Below, piece by piece: positions 39,769 through 59,494 of a DNA stretch of 64,000 nucleotides. The notes beneath the pieces were generated by a model. It saw only the letters and a program-made list of their open reading frames with translations, was not told the origin of the DNA and did not search any database. Location of the stretch: the NCBI RefSeq assembly GCF_900142325.1, contig NZ_FRAM01000002.1, positions 868,001-932,000 of the forward strand. The letters are read 5' to 3'. Origin of the DNA: Epilithonimonas mollis. GTDB taxonomy: Bacteria; Bacteroidota; Bacteroidia; Flavobacteriales; Weeksellaceae. Numbering within the stretch: position 1 is the first letter of the stretch; each line of letters opens with the position of its first letter. A program made the translations under genes and the position numbers.

Positions 39769-39784
39769 GAAATTGAATAAAGTC

Positions 39785-40360
<576 letters not shown>

Positions 40361-45787: not shown

Positions 45788-46336
45788 ATGAGACTGACTG
45801 AAAAAACCGAGGAAAGACTTTCGGCCTTAGAAAAAATTGCCAATGGAATTATCTGGTGGGTCGGTTCTATTCCGTCTTTGATTCTGCATACGATTTTTTT
45901 TATTGTCAGTTTTGCGTTGCCTGTTTTCGGACTCGTGGATTTTGATAAGATGTTGCTGGTTCTCACAACAGTTGTTTCTCTGGAAGCTATTTATCTGGCG
46001 ATTTTCATACAGATGTCGGTCAATAAAAGCTCTGAACATATCGAGGATCTGAAGGAAGATGTCAATGAAATTCAGGAAGATATTGATGAGATCCAGGAAG
46101 ATATTGACGAGATCCAGGAAGATATAGAAGAAATCCAGGAAGATGTGGAAGAAATTCAGGAAGACGTGGAAGAAATAAGTGAAGATGAGGATGATGAAGA
46201 CCACAGCGAGCGTGCCAGAACAGTGATGCTGAAAAGCAAAGTGACGAGCAATAAAAACGATATTAAAAACCTGAAAGATAAAATTGCCGAGTTAGAAAAT
46301 TTAATAGAAAGCCTTAAAAAAGAAGGCGAGCAATAA
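45788..46336 (+). CDS. DUF1003-like membrane protein with acidic heptad-repeat coiled coil
   Basis: A 182-residue protein with two membrane helices (about 20-45 and 55-75) as in DUF1003 proteins. After them come six near-perfect heptads with the pattern E-I-Q-E-D-I/V-D/E (94-135) followed by a very acidic DEDDEDHSE and a final coiled coil (150-180). The heptads correspond to 21-bp DNA repeats at 46067-46192. The cytoplasmic or periplasmic side of the coil is not certain. The stop lies 2 bases from the stop of the convergent monooxygenase gene. Confidence 0.75.
   Translation: MRLTEKTEERLSALEKIANGIIWWVGSIPSLILHTIFFIVSFALPVFGLVDFDKMLLVLTTVVSLEAIYLAIFIQMSVNKSSEHIEDLKEDVNEIQEDIDEIQEDIDEIQEDIEEIQEDVEEIQEDVEEISEDEDDEDHSERARTVMLKSKVTSNKNDIKNLKDKIAELENLIESLKKEGEQ
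46067..46192 (+). repeat. Six 21-bp tandem repeats encoding an acidic coiled coil
   Basis: Units start GAAATTCAGG / GAGATCCAGG / GAAATCCAGG and continue AAGATATTGAT-like. Each codes for one heptad of the DUF1003-like protein. The sixth unit has diverged the most. Because 21 is a multiple of three, gain or loss of units keeps the frame and only changes coil length. Confidence 0.85.
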
Positions 46337-57017: not shown

Positions 57018-57749
57018 TCAGAACATCTTGTCATAATTCCAGGCCGCGACGAAGATTCCCGCAGTTTCTGTCCGCAATCTTTGATTTCCTAATGAAACGG
57101 CTTTGATGCCTTTACCTGCTAATAACTGGATTTCTCTGTCAGAAAAGTCGCCTTCCGGACCAATTAGAAAAGTAATTTGGTTGATGGTTGATGGTTGATG
57201 GTTGATGGCATTGTCACGCTGAGGTTCTCGAAGCGTATTCAAATTAATTCTTTCCAAATTTTCATTACAATGCGCAACAAATGTATTTTCTGGATCCAGA
57301 TTTTTCATAAAGTCAGAAAACTTGGTCAAATCATTGACTTTCGGAAAATGAAACCGATGACTTTGCTTCGAGGCAGAAATCGCCTGTTTTCTCAATTTTT
57401 CGATACTGATATTCTTGCGTTCCGTTTTTTCTGTCCATATAAAACTGACTTCTGAGATTCCCATTTCCACCGCTTTTTCCAGAAAAAACTCGATGCGGTC
57501 GATATTTTTTGTGGGCGCAATAGCGATATGAAGTTTCGGAGAAAAATCAGGTAGGTTTTCTTTGACTTCAGTAACATTTAATGAGACTTTTTTACCTTCA
57601 AAAACCAGATTGCCTTTTGCCAGGTTTCCATTGCCGTCGGTGACGAAAATCTCTTCACCTTCACGCATTCGGAGAACTTTCGTGATGTGAAGTTGCTCAT
57701 CGGAATCGATAATTAAATCAGGGAAAATCTGTCCAAAGAAAAGTTTCAT
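57018..57749 (-). CDS. rsmE: 16S rRNA (uracil(1498)-N3)-methyltransferase RsmE with a repeat-derived insert
   Basis: SPOUT methyltransferase for U1498 of 16S rRNA. The 243 residues hold the family signatures: HITKVLRMREGE (21-32), LHIAIAPTKNIDRIEFFLEK (73-92), GPEGDFSDREI (197-207) and LGNQRLRTETAG (220-231). Between residue 171 and 191, just before the SAM-binding GPEG, about 20 residues (NTLREPQRDNAINHQPSTIN) look foreign. They are encoded by a palindrome-like element and four TTGATGG repeats on the plus strand. The frame is kept. Activity of this form is not known. Confidence 0.92.
   Translation of the reverse strand: MKLFFGQIFPDLIIDSDEQLHITKVLRMREGEEIFVTDGNGNLAKGNLVFEGKKVSLNVTEVKENLPDFSPKLHIAIAPTKNIDRIEFFLEKAVEMGISEVSFIWTEKTERKNISIEKLRKQAISASKQSHRFHFPKVNDLTKFSDFMKNLDPENTFVAHCNENLERINLNTLREPQRDNAINHQPSTINQITFLIGPEGDFSDREIQLLAGKGIKAVSLGNQRLRTETAGIFVAAWNYDKMF
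57181..57208 (+). repeat. Heptanucleotide repeat (TTGATGG)4 inside rsmE
   Basis: Four perfect copies of 7 bp in a coding region. Because 7 is not a multiple of three, a change of one copy would shift the rsmE frame. It is followed by a CTGAG...CGAAG-type element at 57211-57235. Confidence 0.95.
57211..57235 (+). repeat. CTGAG/CGAAG-type element inside rsmE
   Basis: A TTGTCACGCTGAG core followed by GTTCTCGAAGCG belongs to the same loose family as the copies at 49017-49210. Here it is translated in the rsmE frame. Confidence 0.55.
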
Positions 57750-57823: not shown

Positions 57824-58726
57824 TTATCTTTTAGTAGGTTTTACTGTAGAAATAATTTTACTAACAATTGTCATCACTAAAACTACTGCCAATCCGAAAA
57901 CTATTCCCAATGCAAATTGTGGAATCTGCTCAGGCCAACTGTCTGGAACATTGTCCGAAACCCAATGGTGAACCATGTCAATGTTATGATGAAAAATGCC
58001 GCCGGAAACCAATATCAAAGCAATCGTTCCCACGACGCCCAAAATTTTAATGACAACCGGTAAAGCCTTAACCAATAACTGTCCAAGACCTGAAAAAAAA
58101 CCTTTGTTGCCGGACTTTCTCATCAGGAAAAAACCGGCGTCATCCATTCTTACAATTAATGCCACAATACCATAAACGCCTACTGTCGCTATAATGGCAA
58201 CCAATGATACGACAATAATCTGCGTCAGAAGCGGATGTTCTTTTTCGATGACGGTTCCCAATGCGATGATGACAATTTCCAGAGAAAGAATAAAATCGGT
58301 CTTGATGGCCGAGCTTATTTTCGATTTTTCAGAATTGACCTCTTCCTCTTCCAAAGTACTCTCTGCGATCACTTCTCCGCTGGTTTTTTTCCTGTGAAAA
58401 AGATATTCGATGATTTTCTCCACACCTTCATAAGCCAGATAAAAGCCACCGAGAACCAGAAGCACTTTGATAGCGACAGGAAAGAAAAAATTGAGTAAAA
58501 ATACTACGGGAAGGATGATGAGCTTATTGACAAACGAACCTTTGGTAATGGCCCACAGAACAGGGATCTCCCGTGAAGAAAGAAATCCTGTCGCCTTTTC
58601 GGCATTCACGGCAAGGTCGTCACCGAGGATTCCGGCTGTTTTTTTGGTTGCGAGTTTGCTGGTGACTGCGATGTCGTCCATCAGCGCCCCGATATCGTCT
58701 AAGATTGCAAAGAATCCTGAAGCCAT
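57824..58726 (-). CDS. DUF808 (YedI-like) membrane protein
   Basis: A 300-residue integral membrane protein of the DUF808 family. Its N-terminus MASGFFAILDDIGALMDDIA is almost diagnostic. Four to six hydrophobic segments follow, with a cytoplasmic acidic loop (about 118-140). A conserved HHNIDMVHHWV segment near residue 245 is rich in His. Function unknown; metal binding is possible. Downstream lies a long hairpin and rsmE. Confidence 0.85.
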   Translation of the reverse strand: MASGFFAILDDIGALMDDIAVTSKLATKKTAGILGDDLAVNAEKATGFLSSREIPVLWAITKGSFVNKLIILPVVFLLNFFFPVAIKVLLVLGGFYLAYEGVEKIIEYLFHRKKTSGEVIAESTLEEEEVNSEKSKISSAIKTDFILSLEIVIIALGTVIEKEHPLLTQIIVVSLVAIIATVGVYGIVALIVRMDDAGFFLMRKSGNKGFFSGLGQLLVKALPVVIKILGVVGTIALILVSGGIFHHNIDMVHHWVSDNVPDSWPEQIPQFALGIVFGLAVVLVMTIVSKIISTVKPTKR

Positions 58727-58887
58727 AACTTTTTATTTTGTACAAAAATAAGTTTTAAACTTTATAAAATCAATGGTTAAAAATTTGGGAATTGAAAAGC
58801 TTCACAAAGTTCTGAAATGAAAACAGGCCTCCCTGGAGTTTTGCTATGAAAAATATTGTAAGTTGTTGATTGATAGTGAATTTACTT

Positions 58888-59076
58888 CATTGTAATGCTT
58901 CAACGGCCCATCGTAATGCTTCATCGGCTCATTGTAATGCTTCACCGCCTCATCGTAACAGATCACTGGCTCATCGTAATACTTCTTCGGTACATTGAAA
59001 TAAATCAAGGACTCTATGTAGTGCTGCAACGCAGTTTTGTAATGATTCAAGGATTTATTGTAAGCTGATTGGAGAA
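58888..59076. repeat. Nine degenerate 21-bp tandem repeats
   Basis: Units begin at 58888, 58909, 58930, 58951, 58972, 58993, 59014, 59035 and 59056. The consensus begins CATCGTAATGCTTCA. Copies 1-5 are the most alike; 6-9 are more diverged. On the minus strand the array encodes a heptapeptide repeat with a Tyr-Asn/Asp-Glu core, but the open frame (58844-59077) has no ATG start and no clear ribosome site. It may be the remnant of the C-terminus of the gene just upstream or a decayed gene. Confidence 0.85.
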
Positions 59077-59077
59077 A

Positions 59078-59494
59078 TTATCTGATGTTTTGAAACGCAA
59101 TTTCATTCTCGCTGATGAACGCAACGCCGGTTTTCATTGTCGTGTAAATATCCGTGTCACATTCTCGCAAAGAGCACATATAGATTTCTTCCACCCAGGT
59201 GTTGTTGATGAAGATCAGATTGAGATATTCCTGTTTTCTAAGGTTGTTTTTGATGGAAAGATAATCGCCTTCTTTCGGTTCATAAGCAAAACTGAATACA
59301 TTTTCAGCATTGATTTTTTCAAGAATTTCCTCTTTGACATCCTGAAGATAACCTTTATCAGAACTGATTAGGCCAAAATCTTCTGACTCTACCGAAGCTT
59401 CAGTTTTGCCTGTAATGGTTTCTAAAATCCAATAATATTTAGATTTTTTTTTGGCTTGTTTTTCGAGTATTTTTTCTTCGAGGAGTATTTTCAT
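59078..59494 (-). CDS. Uncharacterised protein
   Basis: A 138-residue cytoplasmic protein with no recognised family. It opens with a charged helix (KILEKQAKKKSKYYW) and continues in mixed alpha/beta with many acidic residues. There is no signal peptide. It lies 33 bases after the zinc-ribbon gene on the same strand. Its stop (59078-59080) abuts the 21-bp repeat array, whose heptapeptide frame would continue in the same reading frame if the stop were read through. Confidence 0.55.
   Translation of the reverse strand: MKILLEEKILEKQAKKKSKYYWILETITGKTEASVESEDFGLISSDKGYLQDVKEEILEKINAENVFSFAYEPKEGDYLSIKNNLRKQEYLNLIFINNTWVEEIYMCSLRECDTDIYTTMKTGVAFISENEIAFQNIR

Follow-up and report, generated by a model that had tools for sequence, protein, structure and literature searches.

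In plasmid iteron-Rep systems, direct repeats spaced by about two helical turns lie upstream of the gene for the protein that binds them, and each system has its own private repeat; in ParR/parC-type centromeres, too, a repeat array precedes the gene whose product binds it. BOX elements have a tandemly repeated middle part and fixed ends. Those of the pneumococcus are intergenic repeat elements dispersed through the genome, sometimes with chance open reading frames (PMC3049150). The closest known system by anatomy to the arrays reported here is the BrickBuilt MITE of Porphyromonas gingivalis, which consists of imperfect 23-bp tandem repeats with IS5-like terminal inverted repeats (PMC4596501).

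We consider here a 21-bp tandem array of Epilithonimonas mollis, located in a window of 64,000 nucleotides (contig NZ_FRAM01000002.1, positions 868,001 to 932,000), with the following features.

58877..59065, minus strand: nine 21-bp units, consensus CATTACRATGAGCCGTTGAWG (TRF, lag identity, unit alignment)
58857..58885, minus strand: 3' end of the last unit plus the tail GTAAATTCACTATCAATCAACAACTTACA, common to arrays at other loci and in other genomes
58784..59077, strand not applicable: stretch missing from empty orthologous sites, approximate limits (gap comparison across the genus)
59078..59494, minus strand: 138-aa gene without a Pfam match above cut-off; a neighbour only, on the upstream side
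57824..58726, minus strand: DUF808 gene (E 1.5e-91); downstream neighbour only

A preliminary description had placed a nine-unit, 21-bp array at 58888-59076. The nine units and their period hold, with a lag-21 identity of 103/168 (0.61) over that interval, an identity of 0.16-0.39 at the lags from 5 to 63 other than 21, 42 and 63, and a 21-bp tandem repeat of 4.7 copies called by TRF at 58887-58985; the coordinates were about 11 bp off, since the best register is 58877-59065. A polarity had also been missed: units on the DUF808 side (58877-58981) are near the consensus, and those on the side of the 138-aa gene (58982-59065) are decayed. The last unit (58877-58897) has an altered 3' end, GAAGTAAATTCA.

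We sampled one genome per species. Among the 18 genomes of the genus that carry the 138-aa gene, this one included (five further genus genomes have no match to it), an array occupies the gap after the gene in four (this genome, G000, with G017, G004 and G015). In the other 14 the array-free gap measures 6-129 bp, mostly 73-76 bp; in this genome it measures 351 bp. The orthologous site of G017 holds a different 21-bp unit, CAYTTAGTTGAGGCGTTGATT, followed by the same tail; variants of this tail precede a 231-aa gene in G000 and G008. Three arrays of the window unit are present in this genome. One sister array lies between two genes, which from their sequences we take to be rsgA-like and aroG-like, and an array occupies the orthologous gap in 2 of 22 genomes; the other precedes the 231-aa gene by about 110 bp. 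A search for the same unit in plasmids returned weak unrelated matches only.

The preliminary description had read the array as a heptapeptide frame on the minus strand, and had suggested a decayed C-terminal coding region, a recoding tail of the 138-aa gene, or a structural DNA/RNA repeat. The frame is confirmed: it keeps the reading frame of the 138-aa gene beyond that gene's TAA, is open for 77 codons and has no ATG, and a TTG start would yield 68 aa. It is the one frame of six open across the array, and at least one of six is open in 62% of trials when bases are shuffled within unit columns (P 0.62); an open frame is therefore expected from the units alone. Across gene-linked arrays an open frame is found in 55 of 61, versus 52.2 expected (L311 and L321, with runs of N, are excluded from the open-frame and RNA-folding counts). 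No selection on amino acids is detected: information content is even across the codon positions (0.92, 1.03 and 1.05 bits), and where codons of adjacent units differ by one base in the heptapeptide frame, the change is synonymous in 7 cases and non-synonymous in 33, no better than in the other frames (6:46 to 14:26). Orthologous loci speak against coding as well. Neither the decayed coding region nor the recoding tail is supported, given the 14 of 18 genomes that lack the array, the in-frame stops of the G017 unit, the 7:33 ratio and frames open at chance level. Both refuting conditions named in the preliminary description, relatives lacking the array and amino-acid positions free of selection, thus turned out unfavourable to coding. 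The window array is thus real but non-coding. A heptad-repeat mini-protein, or a readthrough tail of the 138-aa gene, could draw on the frame being open in the window array and both sisters, each sister having an ATG-started frame of 72 aa; against the chance expectation, the codon differences, the stops in relatives and the empty sites, we give it almost no credence.

Of the structural repeat, the DNA part is supported and the RNA part is not: neither strand has a better folding energy than its unit-permuted controls (z about +0.3 to +0.5), and no Rfam family matches the array at its gathering score. Dispersed copies with a fixed tail might be expected of an array encoding a structured or guide-like non-coding RNA, which the missing fold signal, the lack of an Rfam match and the lack of spacers nevertheless make very unlikely. 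A CRISPR array was considered and rejected, as the units abut without spacers.

The 231-aa gene downstream of the second sister array (G000:C5:791956-792639) is solitary and lies about 134 kb from the window array. It has nine matches in 7 of the 23 genus genomes (E up to 1e-10), every one of which (9/9) has a 21-bp array upstream. Among the nine is a paralogue in this genome (L260, G000:C4:699952-703617), 32-33% identical and preceded by its own, unrelated 21-bp unit. By profile search, 36 of the 320 family genomes contain homologues, as do 16 of the 395 genomes in a phylum sample, where a single genome has up to seven copies. Gene neighbours are not conserved between genera, and the module therefore consists of the array and one gene.

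The association of array and gene is demonstrated across genomes of the phylum. In a common test of the 600 bp upstream of the gene, a lag-21 score of at least 36/63 is reached at 41 of 42 loci in the family and at 28 of 34 in the phylum sample, and one of at least 40/63 at 40 of 42 and 24 of 34, respectively; other stretches of these loci reach the two thresholds in 4 and 0 of 218 cases, and independent control stretches show a 21-bp period in 0 of 140. Periods of 10-20 and 22-40 bp are absent from the family set and occur at 0-3 of 34 phylum loci each. Not entered in the test are L311 and L321, which contain runs of N, L081 and L132, which had been recovered through their arrays, any locus with less than 600 bp of upstream sequence and, in the family set, short or broken proteins of under 190 aa; one phylum match, G477:C85, lies at a contig start and is not among the loci analysed.

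Starting from the array side, a pattern scan of genome contigs returned at least 117 stretches, for the most part 21-bp or 7-bp arrays with no relation to the one studied here. Among the matches listed, 34 loci (within L071-L176), in and out of Bacteroidota, have period-21 arrays of at least five units. Two of them, from Polaribacter (L132) and a groundwater Bacteroidetes (L081), each have the gene's homologue immediately after the array; the other 32 yielded no convincing one. Period-21 arrays therefore also exist without the linked gene, and the period by itself does not mark out this gene family. The scan also returned seven-base tandem runs of TTACGAT in Akkermansia and Bacteroidales contigs (L066, L083, L085, L117, L127 and L129), unrelated to the 21-bp arrays. 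The pairing of the array with an uncharacterised gene suggests an undescribed repeat-plus-gene module; literature searches, with subscription journals and preprints outside their scope, returned no description of it. We note that this link explains scattered intergenic minisatellites that annotation would otherwise take for small repeat proteins.

Arrays away from the gene, here termed satellites, occur mainly in gene-bearing genomes. A unit pattern of the type found in g6, one group of genomes within the 320-genome family set, has matches in 33 of the 320 genomes, versus none for a backward control pattern. In g6, arrays are present in 25 of 25 gene-bearing genomes versus 6 of 148 gene-free ones (Fisher test); counting satellites only, in 15 of the 20 gene-bearing genomes with places listed versus the same 6 of 148. 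Gene-free genomes that keep arrays include these six, G020, G018 and G012 (73% completeness). We fetched 20 g6 satellites from a longer listing, one of them (L388) from a gene-free genome. All 20 lie outside ORFs and have a homologous tail of about 27 bp by eye, or 13 of 20 by a strict pattern that fits 24 of the 42 loci tried (11 gene-linked, 13 satellites). Eleven lie between convergent genes, nine between co-directional genes and none between divergent genes, in a count where many represent one site in several species, two neighbours are N-masked and one, at L379, is a doubtful ORF. Beside the genus satellites no gene remnant was found. The window array is one such gene-free satellite copy of an element made of array and tail.

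Compared with the described elements, these arrays resemble BrickBuilt in being intergenic, imperfect short tandem repeats of Bacteroidota, without spacers, with a flanking tail and in several copies per genome (PMC4596501). They differ in having a 21-bp period and many unrelated units, where BrickBuilt has 23 bp and one unit family in one species and a near relative, in having a linked gene, where the available part of the BrickBuilt description gives no partner gene, and in showing no terminal inverted repeats, which BrickBuilt has (PMC4596501). They share with BOX their dispersal between genes; in contrast, the accessible text on BOX stresses secondary structure and describes no linked protein family, whereas here there is one, and no fold signal (PMC3049150). 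As in MITEs, copies are dispersed between genes at filled and empty sites. Unlike in a MITE, no terminal inverted or direct repeats were detected at the array ends: when the tail is compared with the 220 bp on the other side, the inverted match exceeds a z of 3 in 3 of 61 arrays and has a mean z of 0.1-0.5 (L132, L294, L295, L296, L298 and L299 of the family left out). These results bear on a parasitic minisatellite, BOX- or BrickBuilt-like, whose array and tail would be copied to intergenic sites without benefit to the host, the linked gene supplying the copying or being hijacked for it. Sporadic presence at orthologous gaps (4/18 after the 138-aa gene, 2/22 at the first sister array), intergenic sites, a common tail and satellites mainly in gene-bearing genomes are what it would lead one to expect. 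We nevertheless hold it to be rather unlikely, given that no terminal repeats were detected, that no transposase-like domain was found in the linked protein, and that gene-linked arrays with different units are maintained across the phylum, which is more than a parasite needs.

Units are often unrelated between copies, while the 21-bp period is constant. In one genome (G477), two proteins about 70% identical (L302 and L327) have units identical at 12 of 21 positions, versus a 95% null of 12. Such a fixed period with free sequence is rare evidence that DNA is under a length-based or helical-phase constraint. Within the family, the half of the array nearer the tail is the more homogeneous in 35 of 39 cases and the reverse holds in three, in a count whose members are not independent; in the phylum sample polarity is absent (9 versus 15 of 27), and polar growth is therefore at most a family trait. 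(The polarity and unit comparisons exclude L311 and L321; the polarity count keeps L081 and L132.) At most loci of the family the array stops about 105-130 bp short of the ATG; array length ranges from about 117 to 261 bp. Both facts suit a promoter-distal variable-number repeat whose copy number tunes expression of the gene, with satellites as by-products. This we judge improbable, as the 20 satellites lie between convergent or co-directional genes and none between divergent ones, and no period other than 21 was seen.

The linked protein, of about 230 aa, is probably helical. The 231-aa protein belongs to no Pfam family, and structure prediction from two aligned homologues reached a pLDDT of 41. 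No recognised DNA-binding domain was found in it, no Rep family appears among the Pfam matches of 43 members, a sequence-level test only, and sequence searches of solved structures gave nothing below E 0.2. Four of six members match NCBIfam NF052641 (PQLLE) at E up to 0.01 (best 3e-6), weak matches far below the bar for membership, with member 1 at 22.1 bits versus a curated cut-off of 80. PADLOC and PHROGs searches gave nothing convincing. No homologue was found in IMG/VR, plasmids or phages, and copies of the gene occur on contigs of up to 4.7 Mb. Some phylum-level homologues (L302, L305, L306, L319 and L327) have C-terminal extensions, and that of L305 has a weak fn3 match (E 0.005, below cut-off).

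The array/gene pair is like an iteron-Rep system in that a gene is preceded by direct repeats in helical phase whose length falls in the range of 17-22 bp. It differs in lying on chromosome-sized contigs, in having no recognised Rep initiator domain and no plasmid homologue, and in having satellites elsewhere. Unlike ParR/parC, the linked gene is solitary, with no motor gene conserved beside it. We tentatively favour, somewhat short of even confidence, a reading in which the window array is a satellite of a two-part element whose units are iteron-like sites for the linked protein. The element comprises a tandem array of 21-bp units and then a short fixed tail, with the array upstream of the solitary 231-aa gene as putative master copy. 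Two turns of B-DNA span 21 bp, so each unit would present the same helix face; the units are candidate sites at which the linked protein, or a partner of it, would bind along that face. We infer that protein binding is the best reading because the coding and RNA readings fail, and the linked product is the obvious candidate. That protein might coat its own upstream array, thereby controlling itself, and might bind satellites in trans. Arrays would lengthen as units duplicate, which in this family would happen mostly at the tail end, and we propose that unit sequence is thereby replaced quickly while spacing is kept.

Against the iteron-like reading count the lack of a recognised DNA-binding domain and the pLDDT of 41, the absence of polarity in the phylum sample, the 6 of 34 phylum loci below 36/63, and the gene-free genomes that keep arrays. 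Strict sequence-specific binding sits awkwardly with the unrelated units of the two similar G477 proteins. Satellites, moreover, match the gene-linked unit of their own genome (17.5/21) no better than those of other genomes (17.48/21; p 0.53, 10 satellites). A protein that reads spacing or builds the array would fit the lack of a recognised domain, the unrelated units and the unmatched satellites better. It is possible, if doubtful, that we are dealing with an undescribed Bacteroidota module in which a helical protein that stands alone, in many cases extended at its C-terminus and in some of them fn3-like there, goes with an upstream array whose period is exactly 21 bp but whose unit may be replaced altogether, and which in one family also shows polar growth and has satellites in trans. 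Spacing, not sequence, would then be recognised, and the linked protein itself would perhaps build or maintain the array. The linked protein together with its own, its paralogue's or scrambled arrays offers a clear route to the function of a family without a Pfam entry.

Other repeats of the window are of different kinds. A second 21-bp tandem array, at 46053-46191, lies inside a 182-aa ORF (45788-46336, plus strand) and encodes an IQEDVEE coiled-coil heptad, an ordinary coding repeat. A seven-base repeat, TGGTTGA, occurs in 4.4 perfect copies at 57178-57208, within a 243-aa ORF (57018-57749), and a nearly perfect AGTT tetranucleotide run of 12.8 copies at 39781-39831 is a possible slippage site.
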